A DNA stretch of 64,000 bases from Clostridia bacterium (GTDB lineage Bacteria; Bacillota; Clostridia; Christensenellales; Aristaeellaceae): contig JAFROK010000041.1 of assembly GCA_017429695.1 (NCBI GenBank), forward strand, positions 26,364 through 90,363, read 5' to 3'. The notes beneath the pieces were generated by a model that saw only the letters and a program-made list of their open reading frames with translations, was not told the origin of the DNA and searched no databases. Numbering within the stretch: position 1 is the stretch's first letter; the number at the start of each line of letters is the position of its first letter. Shown in pieces: positions 47,837 to 59,893 of the stretch. Both the position numbers and the translations under genes were made by a program.

Positions 47837-48808
47837 ATGAGTCAGTCCTACGACATTACCCATTATTACCACAGCGGTTTCTCCGTTTCCTGCGGGGATA
47901 CCCTGCTTGTTTTTGATTACTGGCGCGGCGAGGAAGGCGAGCTGACGGAAGAAATGCAGCTCACGCCCGGCTTCATCCGCTCCTGGCCCCATGTGGTAGT
48001 TTTCATCAGCCATGAACATATCGACCATCTGGATCCTGTCGTGTTTTCCTGGCGGGATTTGACGGACGTGACCTATATTGTCTCCTCCGATATGCCGGTG
48101 GGCACCCGCGGAAAACGGATGGCCCCGGGAGACACCTTTTCCCCGGTGGACGGCGTGGAGATCACCGCTTACGACTCGACGGACCTGGGCGTCAGCTTCC
48201 TGGTGGATTTCCGGGGCGTCCGGTTCTTCCATGCCGGGGACCTGAATTTCTGGCACTGGCGGGAAGAATCCACCATGCAGGATATTGAGGAGGCGGACGC
48301 GGAATTCCGCAAAGCCGTCGCACCCCTGACTTCCGCAGCCATCGACGTGGCCTTCTTTCCCGTGGATCCCCGGCAGGGCGCCATGTTTGAAGCCGGCGCG
48401 AATTACTTCATCCTCAGCGTCAAGCCCCGCATCCTGATTCCGATGCATTATTTCCACCGGGCGGACGTGGCCATGGAATATGCCCGCACCGCCACCTGCC
48501 GCTCCACAGAAGTCATTGCGATGCCCGTATTCGGTCAGTCCATGACCCTCACCATCGACGCGGATGGTTACCTCAATATCCAGCTGAAGCAGGAACCGCG
48601 TGCAGAAGAAAACACCCGGGCGGTGCAGCCGGTTTCCGGCCCGGCTTTCCCCGGTTCCGCCGGGGAACAGGCCCCCTATCCGGAATCCTATGCGCCTGAA
48701 CCTTCCGCCGGTTTTGCCGCCGGGGAAACGGTTCGGGAAGAGGATCCTTTCGGCGATTCCGACCTGCCGGTAACCCAGCTGTCCGAAAACGAAGAGGAGG
48801 ACGTCTGA
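47837..48808 (+). CDS. MBL-fold metallo-hydrolase
   Basis: A 323-residue protein whose first ~250 residues are a UlaG-like metallo-beta-lactamase fold with ISHEHIDHLD (two-metal site), FFHAGDLNFWHW and ILIPMHYFHRAD supplying further ligands. The C-terminal ~70 residues are a Pro/Glu-rich disordered tail with no domain. Substrate unknown. It is a single-gene unit with a promoter and a terminator. The start follows GGAGGTGAAAG. Confidence 0.88.
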   Translation: MSQSYDITHYYHSGFSVSCGDTLLVFDYWRGEEGELTEEMQLTPGFIRSWPHVVVFISHEHIDHLDPVVFSWRDLTDVTYIVSSDMPVGTRGKRMAPGDTFSPVDGVEITAYDSTDLGVSFLVDFRGVRFFHAGDLNFWHWREESTMQDIEEADAEFRKAVAPLTSAAIDVAFFPVDPRQGAMFEAGANYFILSVKPRILIPMHYFHRADVAMEYARTATCRSTEVIAMPVFGQSMTLTIDADGYLNIQLKQEPRAEENTRAVQPVSGPAFPGSAGEQAPYPESYAPEPSAGFAAGETVREEDPFGDSDLPVTQLSENEEEDV

Positions 48809-48826
48809 ATCGTTTTGCCTCAACGG

Positions 48827-48973
48827 TTTTCCACAGTTTTCCACAGGTTATCCACATTCCGCGGCAGGTTTCCACAGATTGCTGTGGGTTTTCAAAACCG
48901 TTGATTTTCCTCGCTTCTATCGTTCACGATTTCTCTTTCCCTTATATTTCAACCCTTTGCGCCCTGTGGAAAA
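48827..48973. other. Cluster of DnaA-box-like nonamers (site 1)
   Basis: TTTTCCACA at 48827 and 48837, a perfect TTATCCACA at 48848-48856 and GTTTCCACA at 48868, all in one orientation and spaced 10-20 bp apart. TGTGGAAAA in the other orientation is at 48965-48973. This intergenic stretch has no gene. Confidence 0.6.
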
Positions 48974-49011
48974 CACCCGCTTCCATGATATCGGAAGCGG
49001 GTGTCATTTTT
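48973..49011 (+). terminator. Terminator after the MBL-fold gene
   Basis: ACACCCGCTTCC, 8-nt loop, GGAAGCGGGTGT (perfect 12-bp stem), then CATTTTTT. Confidence 0.9.
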
Positions 49012-49050
49012 TGCTTGTAATTTTCGTCATTTTTTGCTCCCAAAAGGGAC

Positions 49051-49179
49051 AGTGATTAGTGGTTAGTGGTTAGTGATTAGGTTTCAGGTGTCAGGTGTCA
49101 GGTCTCAGGTGTCAGGTGTCAGGGTTAGTTGGTCAGCGGCGGTCCGTTTGGTAGTCATCCTGAACGAAGTGAAGGATCT
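49051..49179. repeat. Low-complexity tandem repeats plus a dispersed-element copy
   Basis: GTGATTAGTGGTTAG-type units from 49051, then CAGGTGT/CAGGTCT units to 49123, then a copy of the dispersed element (ATCCTGAACGAAGTGAAGG) at 49154-49179. Confidence 0.75.
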
Positions 49180-49194
49180 CCTCCATTTGCAAAC

Positions 49195-52100
49195 TTATCC
49201 AACCGCTAAAGCTTTCTCTATAGACAATGCATACAGCCACCTTTCCTTCACCTTCCGTCCGGTCAGGCTTTCCAGCGCCGTGGCATACCAGGCCATCTGC
49301 GGCCGGTAATGATCCGCAAAGGCCGCTTCATCCTCAATCCGGTCCGTTTTATAGTCCAGCAGGATCCATTCGCCATCCTCCAGGAATACGCAGTCCATCA
49401 CGCCCTGCACCAGCATATGCTGCTCCTCCCGCAGGAGATTGAAATTCCACTCCCGGTGAACCTCCGGGCTGCTCAGCATCCGCTGCCCGAGCTCCGACAG
49501 GAAAAACTTTGCCACGGCCTCCACGCTGACCACATCCGCCTCGTCCGGCTGGTATACGCCGGCTTCCCGCATGCTTTCCAGCTGCTCCGCCAGGATGGGT
49601 TCCGGATTTTCCTGCCCGCGGAGCTTTTCCAGGTCCGCCAGCGACAGGAACCGGTGGATCATCGTGCCGCGCCAGGCGCCTTGTTTTTCGGGCGGCGGCA
49701 CCATAAAGGCCGGATACGGCCCGGTATCGTATTTCCTGAGCGCCGCGGAAAACCGCTCCGGCATCCGTTTGTCCTCCGGTGTTTCCTCTTCCCGGTCCAG
49801 CCGGTCAAGTTCATTTTCCGCGCTGCGGATCAGGGCCGTCACCGACTTTTTCGCCATCCGTTCCGGCTCCGGATCCGGCTGCGAATCTTTCCACAGGTCA
49901 TCCACAGGGGATTGCGAAAGCAAGGAATTCAGCCAGTTCTCCAAATTGTGGAAAACTTTTTCGTTTTCCACATTTTGCTGTTGATTTTCGTCAAAAACCC
50001 TTATATTCCAAGGCTTCCCGGCTTGTGCACAACCTGTGGACAATTTTTCCGCATCCTTCAGCGCCGGCACAATCCAGTCCAGGTAATCCACCGCCGACAT
50101 CACCCGGGCCACGCCCGCGGGCATCTGCCATCCCGGCCGGTCCTCCGATACGCCCGCCAGGAACATCCGCTCCTGCGCCCGGGTCAGCGCCACATACAAA
50201 AGGCGAATCCGTTCCGCCCGCTCCTCCTGCTCCTGCTTCCATTCAAAGATCCGGTCCGCCGCTGTTTTCCTGGATACCCGGTGACGGGGCTGCTTATACC
50301 GGAGCGTCAGTCCCAGCTCCGCGTCCAGCGCCACCTGGCCTTCCTGCTTTCCCTTCATGGACCGGTCCAGCCCCAGGCAGAAAACCACGGGGAACTGCAG
50401 CCCCTTGGATTTATGCATGGTCATGATCCGCATCACGTCGTCGCCTTCCGCCAGCGGCGCCGCGGCCCGCTGGTCCGTTCCGCCTGAGCGGGCGGATACA
50501 TATTTCAGGAAATCCCGGATCGTATATACGCCGGCGCCTTCCGCGTCCACCGCCTGCCGGCAGATGATCCGGAGGTTCTGCTGCGCAGTCCGGCCCGAAG
50601 CGGACGCGCCGGCCATCGCGTACTGCAGCGAATCGCTGGAAAGGTGATACAGGAACGTGGCCAGGTTCGTCACTTCCGCCATATCCCGCCAGGCCCGGAT
50701 TCTGTCCTGCGCTTCCCGGCAGCGGTTCCCGACCGGCGTATCCGCTTCCGCGCATTTCCGGAATGCCTGCCAGAAGGGAACGTTCTTTCCCGGATCCGCC
50801 AGGCGCACCCGGGCCAGTTCCTCTTCCGTAAAAAAGAACGGCGCATTGCGCAGGCTGGCAATCAGCGGCAGGTCCCTGAATTCATTTTCAATCGTTTCCA
50901 GCAGCTGCAGGAAGGTTTTCACTTCCGGCTGCTCGTAGAAATCCGCCCCGCCGTCAAAGAACACCGGAATGCCCCGCTTCGAAAGCGCCTCCGACAGTTC
51001 CGCGCCGTCCACGCTGACTTTCTGCATTAGGATCACCATATCCCGGTAATGGAATCCTTCCTCCCGCAGCTCCAGCGCGTTTTTCGCCACATAATTGGCC
51101 AGCGCGTCGATCCGCGTCATATCCTCCTTCGGCGCCAGGATGTCCACCATCACGGGATGATACCCTTCCGCCTCCCGGCCCGGAATCAGTTCCTCCCGGG
51201 GCGTATAGTCCATCTCCGCAGTCTCTTTCCGCATAATATCCCGGAAGACCGTGTTGGCTGTTTCCAGAATCTCCGGCCTGGAACGGAAATTGGTCTGCAG
51301 GTCCAGGCAGTCGCCTTCGTTTTCCGGATTCAGGTATTCTTCCTTCCGGCGCATAAACAGCGTCGGATCCGCCCGGCGGAACCGGTAGATGCTCTGCTTG
51401 ACATCCCCGACCATGAACAGGTGGCTGTCTTTTCCGCCCAGCGCCTGGATGATCACGTCCTGCACAGCCGAAACATCCTGGCATTCATCCACAAACACAT
51501 ACCGGTACCGCTGCTGCACCGATTTCCGGAGATCCGGGTCCTTCAGAATGGCCAGCGCCTTGTGCTCCAGGTCGTTGAAATCCAGCACCCGCATTCCGGC
51601 CTTGCTCTTTTCATACTCCTCCCGGGTCCGGAGCACCAGTTTCCGCAATCCCTGCAGGGATTCCCGGATGTTGCCCAGGTCCTCTTCCGCCCGGGCCGGA
51701 TCCGGAAACACCAGGGACAGGATATCCTCATTGATCGCCTTCAGCTTATCCCGGAGCCCGCCGTACCGTTCCTTCCAGTCGATTTCCAGGGATGTCAGCT
51801 TGGTTGCAGCCGGCAGGCGCATAAACGGCCGGTTCAGATCCTCCGGCGAGGCTTCCCCCTGATTCAGCCATGATTGTTTCACGTGAAACAATGCTTCGTC
51901 CGCTTTCCATACTGCCCGGTAGGCCTCCAGATGCTCCTCTTCCTCAAACATCCGGAACTGGGTCCGGAGAATCGCCATGGCCGCCTGCATTCGTTCCCGG
52001 ACAATCCTGTCCATCGTCCGGAACCAGGGATGGGTTCCGTCCACATATTCCGGAATATCCGCGCAGGCATCATTCAGCCAGCCGGCGGGATCCGGCAGGG

Positions 52101-52614
52101 ACATCATAAAAATATAAACCCGGCGGACAATGTCTTCCGCCTGGTTTTTGTCAAAGCGCTGCCGGAATACATGAAAGTCCGCATCACTATCCGCCATCAG
52201 GCCGTTGCAGGCCGCCCGGAAGGCTGCGGAAAACAGGCTGGCCTCCATCCCGCCGTCGCAGATCCGGAACAACGGATCCACATGGACCGACTGGAACTCC
52301 TGCCGGATCAGGTGCTGGCAGAAGGAATGGATGGTGGCAATCTCCATCATATCGATTTTTTCATAGGCATTCCGGACCGTTTCATATTTCCGGTCGTCCC
52401 GCAGCCGGTTTCGGATCTTTTCCTTCATTTCGGAAGCCGCTGTATTAGTGAAGGTGACCACCAGGAAAGATTCCGGATCGGATCCCTCCCGGATCATCCG
52501 GACAATCCGTTCCACCATCACAGCCGTTTTACCGCTGCCGGCCGCGGCAGAACAGATCAGCCTGCGCTCCCCGGACTGTATGACCATTTTCTGTTGTGCT
52601 GTCCAGTTCGTCAT
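49195..52614 (-). CDS. addA: Helicase-exonuclease subunit AddA
   Basis: UvrD-like helicase with a C-terminal RecB-type nuclease that resects double-strand breaks with AddB. 1139 residues, slightly short for the family (~1200). Walker A SAAAGSGKTAVMVER near 22, VTFTNTAASEMKEKIR, the DEAD-type YVFVDECQDVS near 375, VGDVKQSIYRFRRADP, TMHKSKGLQFPVV near 735 and the nuclease motif WILLDYKTD near 1090 are all seen. One parS lies within the gene (codons for FHVKQ). addB is not in the window. It is the third gene of dnaN-recF-addA, 38 nt after recF. Confidence 0.95.
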   Translation of the reverse strand: MTNWTAQQKMVIQSGERRLICSAAAGSGKTAVMVERIVRMIREGSDPESFLVVTFTNTAASEMKEKIRNRLRDDRKYETVRNAYEKIDMMEIATIHSFCQHLIRQEFQSVHVDPLFRICDGGMEASLFSAAFRAACNGLMADSDADFHVFRQRFDKNQAEDIVRRVYIFMMSLPDPAGWLNDACADIPEYVDGTHPWFRTMDRIVRERMQAAMAILRTQFRMFEEEEHLEAYRAVWKADEALFHVKQSWLNQGEASPEDLNRPFMRLPAATKLTSLEIDWKERYGGLRDKLKAINEDILSLVFPDPARAEEDLGNIRESLQGLRKLVLRTREEYEKSKAGMRVLDFNDLEHKALAILKDPDLRKSVQQRYRYVFVDECQDVSAVQDVIIQALGGKDSHLFMVGDVKQSIYRFRRADPTLFMRRKEEYLNPENEGDCLDLQTNFRSRPEILETANTVFRDIMRKETAEMDYTPREELIPGREAEGYHPVMVDILAPKEDMTRIDALANYVAKNALELREEGFHYRDMVILMQKVSVDGAELSEALSKRGIPVFFDGGADFYEQPEVKTFLQLLETIENEFRDLPLIASLRNAPFFFTEEELARVRLADPGKNVPFWQAFRKCAEADTPVGNRCREAQDRIRAWRDMAEVTNLATFLYHLSSDSLQYAMAGASASGRTAQQNLRIICRQAVDAEGAGVYTIRDFLKYVSARSGGTDQRAAAPLAEGDDVMRIMTMHKSKGLQFPVVFCLGLDRSMKGKQEGQVALDAELGLTLRYKQPRHRVSRKTAADRIFEWKQEQEERAERIRLLYVALTRAQERMFLAGVSEDRPGWQMPAGVARVMSAVDYLDWIVPALKDAEKLSTGCAQAGKPWNIRVFDENQQQNVENEKVFHNLENWLNSLLSQSPVDDLWKDSQPDPEPERMAKKSVTALIRSAENELDRLDREEETPEDKRMPERFSAALRKYDTGPYPAFMVPPPEKQGAWRGTMIHRFLSLADLEKLRGQENPEPILAEQLESMREAGVYQPDEADVVSVEAVAKFFLSELGQRMLSSPEVHREWNFNLLREEQHMLVQGVMDCVFLEDGEWILLDYKTDRIEDEAAFADHYRPQMAWYATALESLTGRKVKERWLYALSIEKALAVG
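51875..51890. promoter_or_regulatory. parS site 1 (within addA)
   Basis: TGTTTCACGTGAAACA, identical to the consensus ParB-binding site of Bacillus. It is a perfect 16-bp palindrome inside addA. Confidence 0.93.
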
Positions 52615-52634
52615 CTGTTCTCCTCCGGCAAAAT

Positions 52635-52650
52635 TGTTTCACGTGAAACA
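52635..52650. promoter_or_regulatory. parS site 2 (between recF and addA)
   Basis: TGTTTCACGTGAAACA, perfect consensus, in the 38-nt gap between recF and addA. 760 bp from site 1. Confidence 0.95.
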
Positions 52651-52652
52651 AT

Positions 52653-53819
52653 TTATGTAAAGTCAGGTTCCGCCGTTTCCTTCAGGACCATCGGCCGGCC
52701 CGGGCTGGTCTCCTCCACCCGGGCTTCCCCGTTTCCCGAAGTCACATGATAAACCCGGGGCGCCATGTCCAGTTCCAGGTCCGTTTCATCCGTACAGGTA
52801 ATGAAGGTCTGGTAATCGCTGATTTCCGAAACAAGCCGCATCCGGCGGTTCTTGTCCAGTTCGCTCATCACATCGTCCAGCAGCAGGACCGGCGCGTCCC
52901 CGCCGATCTTCTTCAGCACCTTCATCTGGGCCAGCTTCAGGCTCAATGCCGCTGTCCGGATCTGTCCCTGGCTGGCAAACACCTTCATATTCTTTTTATT
53001 CAGGGACAGGTTCAGGTCATCCCGGTGGGGGCCGGCGGACGTCACACCCAGCCGGATATCGTCCTCCCGGTTCTCCGCCATCTGCCGGCAAAAGGCTTCC
53101 TCCACGGATGCTTCTTCCCGGAGGGAGGAATGATATCCGATCCGGAAATCTTCGTTTTCAAGCCCGGAGATATTCCGGTATGTTTCCGAAGACAGCTCGC
53201 TCAGCAGGTCAATCACTTTTTTCCGCTCCGCCACGATCACCGCCGCCGGCGCTGCCATGGCCTGCTCAAACACTTCCAGCACCTTCCGGCTGCCCCCGCT
53301 GCCGCTCCGCATATCCCGAAGCAGGGCATTCCGCTGTTCGAGCCCGGACCGGTACTGCTGAAGCGCAATAAAATATCCCCGGTTGATCTGGCTGATCATC
53401 ATATCCAGGTAGCGTCGCCTGACGGAAGGCCCTTCCCTGATCAGCCCGAGATCCTCCGGAGAAAAGATCACACACTGAAGGCAGCCCATCATATCGGAAA
53501 ACCGCTGGATTTTCCGGGAATCGATCATGATGGTCTTTTTATTTATTTCGTTAGGTACCAAACGAACAGAAATTTTTCGCCGGACCCCGCCGGCAAGCAC
53601 CGTCACATCACATACGCCGAAGCTTTCCCCGATCCGGACGACGCTCTGGTCGCTCGTCACCCGGTGGCTCTTGCCCAGCGCACAGTAATGAACGGCTTCC
53701 AGCAGGTTGGTCTTACCGGATCCGTTTGCGCCGAAAAAGAGATTCACTCCTTCGTGCGGAAGGAGTGTCATCTCCCGGTAATTCCGGAAATTGCGCAGCG
53801 TGATCTCTTCGATTCTCAT
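52653..53819 (-). CDS. recF: DNA replication/repair protein RecF
   Basis: SMC-like ATPase that loads RecA at gaps. 388 residues: FRNYREMTLLPHEGVNLFFGANGSGKTNLLEA (Walker A near 35), the signature SQGQIRTAALSLKLAQ near 285 and Walker B APVLLLDDVMSELD near 315 are all seen. It starts 13 nt after the dnaN stop. Confidence 0.96.
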   Translation of the reverse strand: MRIEEITLRNFRNYREMTLLPHEGVNLFFGANGSGKTNLLEAVHYCALGKSHRVTSDQSVVRIGESFGVCDVTVLAGGVRRKISVRLVPNEINKKTIMIDSRKIQRFSDMMGCLQCVIFSPEDLGLIREGPSVRRRYLDMMISQINRGYFIALQQYRSGLEQRNALLRDMRSGSGGSRKVLEVFEQAMAAPAAVIVAERKKVIDLLSELSSETYRNISGLENEDFRIGYHSSLREEASVEEAFCRQMAENREDDIRLGVTSAGPHRDDLNLSLNKKNMKVFASQGQIRTAALSLKLAQMKVLKKIGGDAPVLLLDDVMSELDKNRRMRLVSEISDYQTFITCTDETDLELDMAPRVYHVTSGNGEARVEETSPGRPMVLKETAEPDFT

Positions 53820-53832
53820 GGGTTATTCATTC

Positions 53833-54948
53833 TTACTGGAAAACGCGGACCGGCAGGATCAGGTAGATATAATCGTCGCCGTTCTGGGGTACCACCACAC
53901 AGGGGCTGACGCTGGAATTGAACTTCATGCACAGGTTATCGTCCGACACATTGCGGATCACATCGGTAATATAGCGTGCGTTGAAGGCGATATCCACGGG
54001 ATCGCCCACCAGGGACGCTTCCATTTCTTCTTCCACGTCGCCCAGTTCCGCATTGGAGGTAATCTTCAGCACATCCTCCCGGAAGCTCATCTTAATCAGG
54101 TTGTTCTTGCCTTCCCGGGCCATCAGGCTGGCACGGTCAATGGCGTCCTGCACGCTGGCGCGGTTGGCGCGGGCTTCGGACTTGAACTCCGTCGGCAGGA
54201 TCCGGCGGTAATCGATATATTCCCCGGCCAGCAGCACGCTGGACATCCGGATATTCCCGAAGGTGCACTGCATCCGGTTCTGGTTGAACAGCATGGTGCA
54301 GAACGCGTCATCGTCCGGCAGGATCCGGGCCAGCTCATTCAGCACTTTTCCGGGAATAATGGCCTTAACCACATCCATTCCGTCCGGCAGTTCAAAAGGC
54401 TGGAACAGTTTCTGCATCGCCAGGCGGAATCCGTCCAGCGCCACCATCCGCGCTTCACTCCGGCTGACTTCCAGCAAGCTCCCGGTCAGGATCTGGCGGC
54501 TTTCATCCGTTGCGATGGCAAACACGACCCGGGTAATCATATCCTTCAGCTTTTTCTGCGGAATCTTGACCTGGGAGCCGGATGTGAGTGGCCTGATTTC
54601 CGGATATTCCGCCGCGTTCATGATGGCCAGGTTGCTCCGGTTCTTCATGCAGCGGATCATGGCTGTGCGGTTATCCGTAATGGAAATGCTGACCGTTCCG
54701 GAAGGCATTTTCCGGATCAGTTCGGTAAACAGCCTTCCCGGCAGCACCGCCTGGCCTTCTTCCTGAATGGAAGCGGCATTCGTATACTCAATCACCAGCG
54801 ACCCGTCGGAACACGTCATCTGAACCCGGTTATCCTCTGCGGAAATCAGTACGCCTTCCAGAATCTGTTTGGACGGCCTGGCGGAAAGCGCACGGGTGAC
54901 AGTGTTCAGACCTTCGAGCAGGTCCTGGGCGTTCATCGAAAAAATCAT
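53833..54948 (-). CDS. dnaN: DNA polymerase III beta clamp
   Basis: Sliding clamp, 371 residues in three repeated clamp folds; NAQDLLEGLNTVTRALSARP at the N-terminus and the C-terminal LPVRV segment that contacts clamp-binding motifs are clear. It reads away from the candidate origin at 54965-55288. dnaA, which usually precedes dnaN, is absent. Confidence 0.97.
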   Translation of the reverse strand: MIFSMNAQDLLEGLNTVTRALSARPSKQILEGVLISAEDNRVQMTCSDGSLVIEYTNAASIQEEGQAVLPGRLFTELIRKMPSGTVSISITDNRTAMIRCMKNRSNLAIMNAAEYPEIRPLTSGSQVKIPQKKLKDMITRVVFAIATDESRQILTGSLLEVSRSEARMVALDGFRLAMQKLFQPFELPDGMDVVKAIIPGKVLNELARILPDDDAFCTMLFNQNRMQCTFGNIRMSSVLLAGEYIDYRRILPTEFKSEARANRASVQDAIDRASLMAREGKNNLIKMSFREDVLKITSNAELGDVEEEMEASLVGDPVDIAFNARYITDVIRNVSDDNLCMKFNSSVSPCVVVPQNGDDYIYLILPVRVFQ

Positions 54949-54964
54949 GCTGGGTTCCCTCGTT

Positions 54965-55288
54965 TCGTCGAAAAGTAAAAGATAATATTGGATATATATA
55001 ATTCAGTTCGTCATCGTCATAGGCGCTGTGGAAACTGTGGATAACTGCTGCGCCTTCGGAGATGCGGGAAAGATACCCATTTGTTTTCTGTGGAAAACAT
55101 GCCGGATTATCAACAGCTCTTCCGGAATATATTCCATAACCACCCCGGAAATTCCTTCTTTTAGTCCGGAATCCGGATCCGCCCGGGAGTTATTTCCGGA
55201 ACCGTCCACTGATATAACAGAAAAACAGCGGTTTTTATCCCCCGTTTTCACAGAATTCACAGCGCTGTGAATAACATGCTGTGGAAAT
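54965..55288. other. Candidate replication origin (oriC)
   Basis: A 346-bp gene-free stretch. An AT-rich segment (54971-55004, GATAATATTGGATATATATAA) lies next to dnaN. DnaA-box-like nonamers follow: TGTGGAAAC 55027, perfect TGTGGATAA 55036-55044, TGTGGAAAA 55089, TTATCAACA 55107, TGTGAATAA 55266 and TGTGGAAAT 55280. With dnaN-recF reading outward and two parS within 3.5 kb this fits a Firmicutes origin. Confidence 0.7.
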
Positions 55289-55294
55289 CCCCTG

Positions 55295-55828
55295 TTACAT
55301 CGTCGTGAAAACGGATTTGTTCTTCGTGAAATAGTCCACGGCGGAAAGCAGCGTCATCGCCACCACGATTACCGTCATCGCAATCATATACCAGGTTTCA
55401 AACACATGCATGTTCAGCATGATGCAGGCAATGATCAGGATCATCTGGCAGGTGGTTTTGATTTTGCCGAACATGCTGGCGGCAATCACCTTGCCCTGGC
55501 CGACAGCCACCATCCGCAGCCCGTCCACCGCCAGTTCCCGGCTGAGGATCACGATAATGATCCAGGCTTCCATCTGCCGGCGGTGCAGGAGCATGATCAG
55601 CGTGGTCAGCACCAGAAGTTTGTCCGCCACGGGATCAATAAACTTCCCGAAGTCCGTCACCAGGTTATGCTTGCGGGCAATATGGCCGTCCAGGTAGTCC
55701 GTAATCGACGCGATCATGAACAGGATCCCCGCGGCGATCCGGCAGCCGTCGTTTTCCAGGTACAGCAGCACCACGATCACCGGGATGCACATGACCCGCA
55801 TGATGCTCAGTTTGTTCGGCAGATTCAC
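55295..55828 (-). CDS. pgsA: CDP-diacylglycerol-glycerol-3-phosphate 3-phosphatidyltransferase
   Basis: Membrane enzyme for phosphatidylglycerol synthesis. 177 residues, about five membrane helices. The CDP-alcohol phosphotransferase motif D-x2-D-G-x2-A-R-x8-G-x3-D-x3-D is complete (TDYLDGHIARKHN then DFGKFIDPVADK). It overlaps the rimO stop by 4 nt, the common rimO-pgsA pairing. Confidence 0.95.
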   Translation of the reverse strand: MNLPNKLSIMRVMCIPVIVVLLYLENDGCRIAAGILFMIASITDYLDGHIARKHNLVTDFGKFIDPVADKLLVLTTLIMLLHRRQMEAWIIIVILSRELAVDGLRMVAVGQGKVIAASMFGKIKTTCQMILIIACIMLNMHVFETWYMIAMTVIVVAMTLLSAVDYFTKNKSVFTTM

Positions 55829-57148
55829 AGCATTTTCCCCCTCAGGTCATAGGCATCCGCCCGGGTAATCTCCACCGGGATAAACTGCCCGGCTTCCGGC
55901 GGCGTCTGTCCGCAGTCCACGATAATTTCCCCGTCCGTTTCCGGCGCTTCCCGGCTGCTGCGGCCCAGGCAGGTCCCGTCGTTTCCGGTATCGGTCACCA
56001 GCACCTGTTCCACCATGCCGACGCGCTCCCGGTTCCGCTTCAGGGAAATTCCCTGCTGCAGCGTCATCAGGCGGTCATAGCGTTCCTGTTTGATTTCATC
56101 CGGCACCTGGTCCGGCATATCAGCAGCCGGTGTGCCTTCCTCCGGTGAGAACATGAACGCGCCCAGCCGGTCAAACTCCGTTTCTTCCACAAAGTCCAGC
56201 AGTTCTTTAAACTGGTCTTCCGTCTCCCCCGGGAAACCGACGATCAGGCTGGTCCGGAGCGTCAGGCCCCGCTCCCGCGCGCCGCGGACGCAGCGGAGGA
56301 TATCCTCCCTTGTTCCGCGCCGGCGCATACTTTTCAGTAAGGCAGCATTGATATGCTGCAGCGGAATATCCAGGTACGGGCAGATGTTTTCGGTTTCCGC
56401 CAGCACGTCCAGCAGTTCGTCGCTGGTTTCATCCGGATAGCAGTAGAGCACCCGGAGCCAGTCCACGCCGTCGATTCCGGCGGCTTTTTTCATCAGCGCC
56501 GGCAGGGCGGAATGGCGCTGCCAGTCCGTTCCGTACCGGGTGGTATCCTGGGCCACCAGGATATGCTCCCGGACGCCGCCGGATGCCAGCTGCCGGATTT
56601 CATTCAGGATATCCTCTTCCTTCCGGCTGCGGTACGGTCCGCGGATCAGCGGAATCGCGCAGAAGGCGCAGCGGTTGGAGCAGCCCTCCCCGATCCGCAC
56701 ATAGGCGGAATAGAACGGGGTGGTCAGCACGCGGCTGTGCTCCAGGTAGGAATGATCGTCCTGGCAGCGGCTGATCCGCTTTCCGGCCAGGGCGGTATCG
56801 ATCGCGTCCGGCAGGGTGGCATACTGGTTCACGCCCAGCAGCAGGTCGATCTCCGGCATCTCCTTCAGCAGGTCCTTTTCATACCGCTGGGCCAGGCAGC
56901 CGGTGACTACCAGCAGTTTGCACCGGCCGGATTTTTTATATTCCGCCATTTCCAGAATCGTATTGATGGATTCTTCCTTCGCGGAATCAATGAATCCGCA
57001 GGTATTGACCATCAGGATGTCCGCTTCGGCCGGGTCCGGAGTGAACACATATCCCCGGTCCTTCAGCAGGCCCAGCGCCGTTTCGGTATCTACCCGGTTT
57101 TTGTTGCAGCCCAGCGAAACCACGCCCACAGAAAAAGCCGTAAGGCAT
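55825..57148 (-). CDS. rimO: Ribosomal protein S12 methylthiotransferase, apparent 1-nt indel at N-terminus
   Basis: Radical SAM enzyme that adds a methylthio group to an aspartate of ribosomal protein S12. It has an UPF0004 domain (VSLGCNKNRVDTE), the radical SAM motif EGCSNRCAFCAIP, and a C-terminal TRAM domain; ~434 residues. The coding frame opens only with a GTG at 57129 that lacks a ribosome site. A good site (GGGAGGAGGA) and ATG at 57148 are one frame off. Removing one T from the T5 tract at 57132-57136 joins them (MPYGFSVGVVSLG). A sequencing error or a real frameshift is possible. Confidence 0.9.
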
Positions 57149-57216
57149 TCCTCCTCCCTGGTTGTTCCGTATCAGACGAAAGCCAGTATACCATGAATCC
57201 GCTTTTTTGAAAAGAA

Positions 57217-57246
57217 TGGACAGAAAAGAGTTGTTTCTTATATAAT
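57217..57246 (+). promoter_or_regulatory. polA promoter
   Basis: TGGACA (57217-57222), 18-bp spacer, TATAAT (57241-57246). Confidence 0.6.
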
Positions 57247-57292
57247 AAATACAAATGTCAAAGAATCCGGGAAACGGAAAGGAAGCGCCGAT

Positions 57293-59893
57293 ATGAAGGA
57301 TATCTTTCTGATTGTGGACGGAAACAGCCTGGTTCACAGGGCATTCCACGCCCTGCCCCTGATGGACGCGGACGGCGTGTATACCAACGCGGTGTACGGT
57401 TTCCTCAGCATGCTGCTGAAGGTGATCCGGGAAGAAAACGCCCAGTACCTGGCGGTCTGCTTTGATGAGCACGGGCCTACCTTCCGCCACACGGTGTATA
57501 CAGAATACAAAGCCGGACGGGCGGCCACCCCGCCGGAGCTGAGACAGCAGTTCGGCACGATGTACACCCTGCTGGATGACATGGGTATCCACCGGTTCTC
57601 CCTCCAGGGCTGGGAGGCGGACGACCTGCTGGGCACACTGAGCCTGCAGGCCGCGGAGCAGGGCGTGACGCCGCTGCTGCTGACCGGGGACCGGGACGCC
57701 CTGCAGCTGGTGGGCGGCGGAACGGAGCTGATGTTCACCCGGAAAGGCATTTCCGAAACCATCCGGTTCACGCCGGAAAAGGTCTATGAGGAATACGGAT
57801 TCACGCCGGCCCAGGTGACGGACTGGAAAGGCCTGGCGGGCGATTCCAGCGACAATATTCCCGGCGTGCCCGGCGTGGGCGACAAGACGGCGGTCAAACT
57901 GCTGCAGGAATACGGCACGCTGGAAAACGTGCTGGACAACGCCGGAAACATCAAAGGCAAGCTGGGCGAAAAGCTGGCCACCTGGGCGGACCAGGCGCGG
58001 TTTTCCAAACAGCTGGCTACCATCCGGCGGGACGCGCCGGTGGACTTTAAGCTTTCAGCCTGCGCCTTGCCGGATCTGAAGCAGGGCATTCCCGCCCTGA
58101 AAAAACTGAAGCTCTTCAGTATTATCAAGCGGATTGAAGGCGGCGGGGATGAGGCAAAGCCGGCATCCGCCGCGCAGGCAGCGGCCGGGGAAATCACCCG
58201 GCCGGACATGAAGCTGCTTTCCTTCCGGGAGGCGGACGTGCTGCAGACGCCGGACGAACTGGCCAAATGGCTGAAGGACGCGGAAACGGAAGACGGCGAA
58301 CTGTGCCTGTGGATGGATGAGACGGCGGTGATGCTGGCCAAGGAAAGCGGAAAGCGCGCGGCGGTCACGCTGGGGGGCGACCTGCTGAATCCCGGCATGG
58401 ATCCGCTGGAGGTGCTGGGCCTGCTGGCGGAAGCAATACGGAAGGGCGACGCCGTGGTGCACGACGGGAAAGCCTGGCTGAAGCGGCTGGACCGGGCGGG
58501 ACTGGCGCTGCCGGAAACCTTCGGCTGGGATACAATGCTGGCGGCCTACCTGCTGAATCCCCAGGAGAAGAGCTACCGCCTGAAGGCGCTGTGCCCGGAC
58601 CTGCCGGACGACGCGGCGACGCTGTGCTCCCTGGCGGTATGGCAGAAGGCGCAGATTGCCTCGGACGGCATGATGTCCCTGATGAAGGACGTGGAAATGC
58701 CGCTGAGTTTTGTGCTGTTCCGGATGGAAAAGGCGGGATTCTCCGTGGATACGGAATTTCTGCGGGAACTGGGCAAAAAATACGCGGCGGAAATTGATCA
58801 GCGCAGGAACGAAGTGATCGCGGCCTCCGGCGGCGAAACCTTCAACCTGAACAGTCCGCAGCAGCTGGGCGACGTGCTGTTTGAAAAAATGAAACTCCCC
58901 CACGGGAAAAAGACCAGCAAGGGGTATTCCACATCGGCGGAAGTGCTGGAGGGCCTGCGCTTTGACGCACCGGAGGTCATCGAGCCCCTGCTGCGCTACC
59001 GGCAGCTGGCCAAGCTGAACGGTACCTATGTGGAAGGCCTGCTGCCGCTGGTGGACGGAAACGGCCGGGTGCATTCTACCTTTGATCAGACGGCCACTGC
59101 CACCGGGCGGCTGTCCTCCTCCGAGCCGAACCTGCAGAACATTCCCGTCCGCACGGAGGAAGGAAAGGAAATCCGGCAGGCGTTCCTGCCGAAGGCAGGC
59201 TGGATCCTGCTGGACGCGGACTACAGCCAGATCGAGCTGCGGCTGATGGCGCATTTTTCCGGGGACGAGGCGCTGCTGGATGCTTTCCGGAACGGCGAGG
59301 ATATCCATACCCGCACGGCGTCGGAGATTTTCGACGTGCCGAAGGACTGGGTCACGCCGGAACTGCGCAGCCGGGCCAAGGCGGTGAACTTCGGCCTGAT
59401 CTACGGCATCAGCGGGTTCGGCCTGAGCCGGAATACCGGCGTCAGCCGCCGGGAGGCCGCGGAGTTTATCGAAAAATATTTCCGGAAGTATCCGGGCGTC
59501 AAACGGTTCATGGATGAGTTTGCGGCGGAAGGAATCAAAAACGGCTATGCGAAAACGCTGCTGGGCCGGCGGCGTTACCTGCCGGAACTGCAGAGCACGA
59601 AGGCGCCGGTGCGGGAGTTCGGCAAGCGCGCGGCGATGAACACGCCGGTGCAGGGCACTGCGGCGGATATCATCAAGCTGGCCATGGTCCGGGTGGACCG
59701 GATGCTCCGGGAGGCGGGCATGCAGAGCCGGCTGATCCTGCAGGTGCATGACGAACTGCTGCTGGAGTGTCCGCCGGAGGAAGCGGAAAAAGCCGCGGAT
59801 ATTCTGCGGGAAGCCATGGAAGGCGCCATGCAGCTGAATGTCCCCCTCGTCGCCGAAGTCCACCAGGGCGTCAACTGGGCCGAGGCGAAGTAG
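57293..59893 (+). CDS. polA: DNA polymerase I
   Basis: 866 residues. A 5' nuclease domain covers residues 1-280 (DGNSLVHRAFHALP, GWEADDLLGTL, GVPGVGDKTAVKLL). The 3'-5' exonuclease-like domain (~300-470) has lost the D-x-E motif (WMDETAVML), so proofreading is probably absent, as in several Gram-positive PolA proteins. The polymerase domain is intact: motif A LDADYSQIELRLMAHFSGD, O-helix RAKAVNFGLIYGIS, motif C LQVHDELLLE. The start follows GGAAAGGAAG. Confidence 0.97.
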   Translation: MKDIFLIVDGNSLVHRAFHALPLMDADGVYTNAVYGFLSMLLKVIREENAQYLAVCFDEHGPTFRHTVYTEYKAGRAATPPELRQQFGTMYTLLDDMGIHRFSLQGWEADDLLGTLSLQAAEQGVTPLLLTGDRDALQLVGGGTELMFTRKGISETIRFTPEKVYEEYGFTPAQVTDWKGLAGDSSDNIPGVPGVGDKTAVKLLQEYGTLENVLDNAGNIKGKLGEKLATWADQARFSKQLATIRRDAPVDFKLSACALPDLKQGIPALKKLKLFSIIKRIEGGGDEAKPASAAQAAAGEITRPDMKLLSFREADVLQTPDELAKWLKDAETEDGELCLWMDETAVMLAKESGKRAAVTLGGDLLNPGMDPLEVLGLLAEAIRKGDAVVHDGKAWLKRLDRAGLALPETFGWDTMLAAYLLNPQEKSYRLKALCPDLPDDAATLCSLAVWQKAQIASDGMMSLMKDVEMPLSFVLFRMEKAGFSVDTEFLRELGKKYAAEIDQRRNEVIAASGGETFNLNSPQQLGDVLFEKMKLPHGKKTSKGYSTSAEVLEGLRFDAPEVIEPLLRYRQLAKLNGTYVEGLLPLVDGNGRVHSTFDQTATATGRLSSSEPNLQNIPVRTEEGKEIRQAFLPKAGWILLDADYSQIELRLMAHFSGDEALLDAFRNGEDIHTRTASEIFDVPKDWVTPELRSRAKAVNFGLIYGISGFGLSRNTGVSRREAAEFIEKYFRKYPGVKRFMDEFAAEGIKNGYAKTLLGRRRYLPELQSTKAPVREFGKRAAMNTPVQGTAADIIKLAMVRVDRMLREAGMQSRLILQVHDELLLECPPEEAEKAADILREAMEGAMQLNVPLVAEVHQGVNWAEAK

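Follow-up and report, generated by a model that had tools for sequence, protein, structure and literature searches.

Organization of the locus

The stretch of DNA analysed here (hereafter the window, 64 kb) corresponds to bases 26364-90363 of contig C39 in a draft genome of 60 contigs and 3.03 Mb that is 88% complete. The nearest named relatives of its dnaN are uncultured Clostridia, many of them from goat, sheep, horse and yak gut samples. The gene-free gap between dnaN and pgsA (54949-55294, no strand; 346 bp, 45% GC) is flanked on one side by dnaN (53833-54948; TIGR00663), recF (52653-53819; TIGR00611) and addA (49195-52614), all on the minus strand and thus pointing away from it, as claimed in an earlier note on this DNA. 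The best NCBIfam model for addA is TIGR02785, with 610 bits, below the cut-off of 707.65, and the solved AddA 3u44 served as a further reference. On the other side of the gap, profile-based gene calls agree with the same note in placing pgsA (55295-55828, minus; TIGR00560), rimO (55825-57129, minus; TIGR01125) and polA (57293-59893, plus; TIGR00593). A gene convergent with addA (47837-48808, plus) has weak metallo-beta-lactamase-fold matches in Pfam. The ORF beside the element called C below was considered as a candidate parB and dropped, its Pfam match being to a weak metallo-beta-lactamase fold and parB being located elsewhere. A serine recombinase is encoded near the contig end (62620-63999), with matches far under the cut-offs to the CcrA/B/C cassette chromosome recombinase models.

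The two perfect parS sites announced near the gap are indeed present as sequence matches, one in the recF-addA gap (52635-52650, plus) and one within addA (51875-51890, plus). Allowing at most one mismatch, the parS sites found in five genomes, one or two per genome, are beside dnaN. In four relatives, parB lies 0.75-1.0 Mb and rpmH 0.17-0.23 Mb from dnaN. The usual origin cluster is dispersed: parB and rpmH also departed, and parS, dnaN and recF remained.

DnaA boxes and unwinding module in the dnaN-pgsA gap

The gap contains one perfect DnaA box, TTATCCACA (55036-55044, minus), four sites with at most one mismatch and seven with at most two. At the window's own rate, 0.17 sites with at most one mismatch would be expected in 346 bp, against the four observed, so that the cluster is beyond chance. 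Sites with one mismatch are found at 55089-55097 (minus), 55107-55115 (plus) and 55266-55274 (minus). The six box-like nonamers of the earlier note, one of them perfect, are thus confirmed as to the perfect one, and their number falls between the four and the seven counted here. The AT-rich segment that it mentioned is also real (80% AT over the best 40 bp, at 54972), though DNA nearby is richer in AT: the AT-richest 50 bp between 44 and 64 kb lies at about 57.2 kb in the rimO/polA interval (57203-57256), outside the gap.

The perfect box is the first of a tandem pair that opens an ordered module directed toward dnaN (54972-55044). It is abutted by GTTTCCACA (55027-55035, minus), a box with two mismatches, which is followed by a GC spacer of four bases (55023-55026, minus), by a DnaA-trio-like run of five NNA triplets, CTA TGA CGA TGA CGA (55008-55022, minus), by an AT-rich tract that is the candidate unwinding element (54972-55011, no strand) and finally by dnaN. 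The triplet run of the window is degenerate, only the first of the five being the canonical CTA; relatives often have more, as judged by eye, for example CTACTACGACGACGA or CTACTACTACTA. A strict automatic criterion recognizes the module in the window and in 31 of the 38 genomes of its genus that have dnaN, the remaining seven failing it. Applied to 30 of the genus loci, the criterion selected 24, against 2 of 1500 dinucleotide shuffles; among other loci of the family it selected 5 of 20 and rejected 15, with 1 hit in 1000 shuffles. By eye, a CTA-type tract is visible upstream of dnaN in 15 of these 20 other family loci, and it is absent or weak in L243, L244, L246, L255 and L259. From its order of parts, what the dnaN-pgsA gap holds is a predicted Bacillus-type unwinding module.

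The genus counts out of 38 genomes include near-copies (for example G150, G175 and G066, whose dnaN proteins are identical) and leave aside the 7 of 45 genus genomes that have no dnaN match.

Two DnaA-box arrays near the gap

Two further clusters of boxes, which the earlier note did not list, are located at 49898-50043 and 48827-48973, both on the minus strand. The first, element B, consists of four DnaA boxes spaced 71-17-49 bp within addA, and is defined by its box geometry, a codon test and genus counts. The second, element C, lies between the convergent genes and is composed of one DnaA box, 117 bp, and then tandem opposite boxes; it is defined by box geometry and genus counts. Both arrays are 5-6 kb from the origin gap (within 6.2 kb) and in both the box spacing is fixed. 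Short direct repeats, tcaggtgtcagg and ttagtggttag, are present at 49060-49130, between addA and element C.

B reaches at least 27 of 36 points in 33 of the 38 genus genomes with dnaN, the maximum in 220 control segments being 25, and C reaches at least 24 of 27 points in 27 of them, the maximum in 110 control segments being 20; a first count on 34 loci had given B in 30 and C in 23. Five genomes miss B: G160 and G183 are too short to tell, and G151, G156 and G168 are without it. These last three all lack addA at the locus and form one supported clade, in which G156 keeps a three-box piece. Among the 11 genomes missing C, G066, G160 and G183 are too short to tell and eight others are below the set score.

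One explanation for such elements is that they act with parS in chromosome segregation or in the loading of condensin, instead of in DnaA control. The distance of B and C from the parS sites of the window, at most 4 kb, would fit such a role; however, the conserved units are DnaA boxes and not parS-like sequences, and the number and place of parS vary independently of them, which makes this role improbable, if still the best placed of the alternatives that we considered.

A second explanation, that the arrays are by-products, B being fixed by the protein sequence of AddA and C by transcription termination, draws on their context: B is within a coding gene and is gone from one clade devoid of addA, and C is placed between convergent genes and starts with a terminator-like hairpin in several loci, as judged by eye. 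The codon test argues against it for B. Codon identity among identical residues in 18 addA sequences has a mean of 0.552 (sd 0.079; 1186 windows of 25 codons), and its peak of 0.916 is at B, where the 25 highest of the 1186 windows are all found. Residue identity at the same place is only about 0.4-0.5, and the stretch aligns poorly with the solved AddA. Moreover, B can persist where the gene does not. When a locus is scored as devoid of addA if fewer than 400 residues are matched, the 36 genus loci reaching far enough comprise 26 with addA, all 26 carrying B, and 10 without it, 7 of which carry B. Among these seven, G177 retains a remnant of 52 residues that is exactly the B stretch, G180 retains 189 residues, and the other five have no detectable remnant. 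They occupy six separate places in a dnaN tree of 39 rows; an earlier tree with six of these loci required six changes, at least four of them forced by well-supported branches. With the fixed box spacing of both B and C added to this, a by-product origin is quite unlikely. Array B thus looks conserved for its DNA sequence, in its own right, and provides a clear example of a protein-coding gene that harbours a likely replication-control sequence.

A search of Rfam over 48600-55400 with E up to 0.1 gave no match, and B and C are therefore not a described RNA family. A second motif in the two arrays (of the CTTG-AAA-AAG type) was considered and rejected: three patterns showed little or no enrichment, and the two that did better rest on six hits each. 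B and C correspond to what is expected of titrating clusters, namely clustered boxes that are outside the minimal origin and near it. Most likely they would bind and retain DnaA, and two roles come into question: they may be sinks close to the origin, or they may act in cis in place of the boxes of oriC1.

Place of the probable replication origin

GC skew was read in two near-complete relatives, G150 (one contig, 3,390,518 bases; 40 samples of 20 kb) and G091 (21 samples). In G150 the skew is negative in the samples between 1.02 and 2.74 Mb and positive in those from 2.74 Mb onward, through the contig ends, to 0.95 Mb, with the exception of one plus-arm sample of the 40 that is slightly negative (-0.004 at 425 kb). 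Within 2.72-2.76 Mb the minimum of the cumulative skew is at 2,744,501, and dnaN starts at 2,744,195; the opposite turn, at 0.95-1.02 Mb, is about half a chromosome from dnaN. The skew of G091 also passes from minus to plus around dnaN (1.671 Mb), the sample to the right of the gene (1.69-1.71 Mb) having the wrong sign (-0.035), and the opposite turn, again at about half a chromosome's distance, lies between 0.02 and 0.16 Mb. In both relatives the turn is thus found at the place orthologous to the gap. A whole-genome skew minimum elsewhere, and a dnaA-linked box cluster at another locus that explains the origin, had been named beforehand as observations that could refute an origin at the gap. 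The first did not appear in either relative, nor did the second: a box cluster accompanies dnaA in the genus, but at a distance of 1.2-1.4 Mb, inside one arm and without a skew turn.

The possibility that the gap is only a dnaN promoter with DnaA-regulated boxes, the origin being elsewhere, for example at dnaA, could appeal to the latter cluster, since 2-4 DnaA boxes are present within 500 bp upstream of the dnaA profile match in all 30 loci read out of 40. It could also appeal to the window itself, whose local cumulative skew minimum falls at about 57 kb, between rimO and polA, where gene orientation switches. Against it, dnaA in G150 and G091 is inside an arm of constant sign and the skew turns at dnaN, the parS sites of the five genomes adjoin dnaN, and it is at dnaN that a triplet run and an AT-rich tract follow the boxes. 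We regard an origin elsewhere as very unlikely, and the dnaN-pgsA gap is very probably the real chromosome replication origin. In the samples from G150 (40) and G091 (21), box clusters are confined to the origin, apart from those upstream of dnaA in G150.

Location of dnaA

No dnaA is present within the 64-kb window, and a profile search of the whole 88%-complete assembly gave no match reaching the cut-off of the DnaA model, in agreement with the absence of dnaA from the neighbourhood of the gap that the earlier note had described. A protein of 328 aa that passes the looser cut-off of Pfam was dropped as a DnaA candidate, a DnaC-like ATP-binding model fitting it best, and another weak DnaA match in the same assembly is ClpB. 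By contrast with this assembly, dnaA is above the cut-off in 40 of 45 genus genomes and in all 13 of high quality.

The distance between dnaA and dnaN can be read in the four genus genomes in which both are on a shared contig, and amounts to 1.21 (G091), 1.28 (G132), 1.32 (G150) and 1.38 Mb (G175); where the remaining genus genomes have both genes, these do not share a contig. In the same four genomes dnaA is positioned at 74-78% of half the contig from dnaN and is read along fork movement. It adjoins pheS and pheT in G150, and pheS also in G132 and G091. A bipartite origin around dnaA, with the gene between two box regions, is consequently not the arrangement of these relatives. The boxes upstream of dnaA are a candidate place for autoregulation.

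Since the assembly of the window also lacks pheS, the usual neighbour of dnaA, the absence of dnaA there is most likely an assembly gap, and an assembly without that locus is unable to show where dnaA lies in the window's own genome; the search for dnaA proposed earlier thus succeeded in relatives, where the gene is far from dnaN, and not in the genome itself. That dnaA is truly absent and initiation proceeds without it, a condition with precedent in free-living cyanobacteria without dnaA according to PMC7198777 and compatible with the empty profile search, is hardly credible for an assembly that is 88% complete and misses pheS too, in a genus where nearly all genomes and every good one have the gene.

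The skew turns that place the origin, the module with its conservation, the distant position of dnaA, the persistence of parS beside dnaN and the conservation of B and C were all observed in relatives, and the genome of the window presumably has the same origin arrangement.

Age and spread of the displacement

The order in which dnaA lies beside dnaN is common in bacteria. Among the 124 genomes of the family with both genes (partial and weak dnaA matches being left out), dnaA and dnaN are at most 1 kb apart in 38; in 5 they share a contig at a greater distance, and the 81 in which the contigs differ decide nothing by themselves. The five on the same contig but apart comprise three genomes of genus g26, at 37-46 kb, and two of the window's genus, at more than 1.2 Mb. 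For comparison with the window's genus, loci were considered as separated only if 4 kb or more could be read upstream of dnaN. There are 19 of them, from 18 other genera, and their dnaA match is on a different contig or, for g26, at a distance of 46 kb.

When the 21 adjacent genomes are placed on a dnaN tree with 45 rows, a single branch (support 100/98) sets them apart from the rest, so that one change is sufficient, against a shuffled mean of 15. Given that adjacency is the common bacterial order, the simplest reading of this unrooted tree is that the displacement reflects one old separation. The earlier proposal of a rearranged origin with displaced dnaA is therefore supported as such, with the qualification that the dnaN tree presents the displacement as neither recent nor private to this genome: it is old and common to many genera. 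Two dnaN sequences are peculiar: G163:C75:1707-2741 is a second, distant dnaN homologue with 27% identity, and in G156 (C31:26166-27274) dnaN is split into two matches with an internal stop, possibly through an assembly error.

Clusters of at least three boxes per 250 bp, at 1.2-9 kb from dnaN, were found in 0 of 21 adjacent loci (4 of these stretches extending less than 7 kb downstream), in 5 of 19 separated loci of other genera and in 34 of the 38 dnaN-bearing genomes of the genus; three of the four that lack one have only a short stretch. These genus figures refer to all 38, whereas an initial count had excluded seven loci lying beyond the genus or on its border. A reversed control pattern was found in none of the adjacent and genus loci and occurred 0.07 times per 10 kb in the separated ones. 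With all adjacent genomes in a single clade, the link between arrays and displacement is effectively one contrast and no proof.

Comparison with known origins

The bipartite type of origin consists of oriC1, upstream of dnaA, and oriC2, between dnaA and dnaN, and a GC spacer is part of the basal unwinding system. The gap described here is like the oriC2 of Clostridioides difficile and Bacillus subtilis, located between dnaA and dnaN, in that boxes, CTA-type triplets, an AT-rich tract and dnaN follow one another in that order. PMC7561715 gives this order for C. difficile oriC2 and CACCTACTACTATTACTACTATGA as the C. difficile trio, and PMC6669920 describes the same part order for the basal unwinding system of B. 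subtilis and dnaA-dnaN adjacency as the common bacterial order. Unlike in these species, dnaA is 1.2-1.4 Mb away in the relatives of the window, together with the boxes upstream of it, and for this reason the loop between oriC1 and oriC2 around dnaA is unable to form as in the known case. In C. difficile the boxes of oriC1 are needed for melting in vitro, as stated in PMC7561715.

A dnaN-linked origin with dnaA elsewhere is already known from cyanobacteria: in Synechococcus elongatus, according to PMC7198777, oriC is near dnaN at a skew turn and dnaA is encoded elsewhere. The two cases share a skew-turn origin beside dnaN and the separation of dnaA from dnaN. The cyanobacteria, however, are another phylum, where skew is irregular in many genomes and dnaA has been lost from some. 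The present case shows regular skew, a module of Bacillus type, additional box arrays and a dnaA gene that the genus has retained. We found no report of displaced dnaA in Clostridia in a literature search that was mostly open-access and hence is weak evidence of novelty; a search of the same kind found no paper on DnaA boxes within addA. The new part appears to be arrays B and C, which are conserved DNA elements and, as far as known, new.

The closest counterparts of B and C are the DnaA-box clusters (DBC) of B. subtilis, near the origin, and datA of Escherichia coli, which are reported to restrain initiation, nearness to oriC being important (PMC5010248). Box clusters outside oriC lower free or active DnaA (PMC5010248 and PMC5295017). 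For B. subtilis the review PMC5295017 attributes to these clusters no significant role in initiation control, yet removal of all six leads to early initiation. B and C resemble DBC and datA as DnaA-box clusters outside oriC; they differ from them in lying within about 6 kb of the origin, in their fixed box geometry and in the overlap of B with the coding sequence of addA.

Proposed mechanism and implications

We assign a probability of about 0.9 to the reading that the dnaN-pgsA gap is the functional chromosome origin, the oriC2 half that would have been left with dnaN, recF and parS after dnaA moved, and that B and C are conserved DNA elements. According to this reading, DnaA would be made from a gene that in relatives is 1.2-1.4 Mb away and has its own upstream boxes; it would bind the tandem boxes next to the triplet run and melt the AT-rich tract beside dnaN, after which the helicase would be loaded. 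Two forks would depart in opposite directions and converge at about half a chromosome's distance.

More tentatively, and with odds somewhat against it, the origin may have lost its oriC1 half when dnaA left, a new cis-acting DnaA control region (B and C) having evolved across dnaN, so that the initiation circuit would now be spatially split: as sinks, B and C would be copied as soon as the origin fires, and dnaA only with the fork about three quarters of the way to the terminus. Both effects would lower the ratio of DnaA to its sites after firing. As an alternative to the role of sinks, B and C could stand in for the oriC1 boxes that went with dnaA.

Many origin calls rely on finding dnaA next to the origin, and models of initiation timing incorporate this position. 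This group of Clostridia keeps a predicted Bacillus-type origin at dnaN, with dnaA three quarters of the way toward the terminus in the genus, and its sister clade keeps the usual order; it therefore constitutes a natural experiment that allows a direct test of how much the position of dnaA, and DnaA sinks close to the origin, matter. If the split circuit is real, array B would be written into addA so strongly as often to outlive the gene, as in G177, where only the B stretch is left.

An addA copy is present on another contig in G186 (two copies), G176, G172, G184 and G163, which are genomes without addA at the origin.
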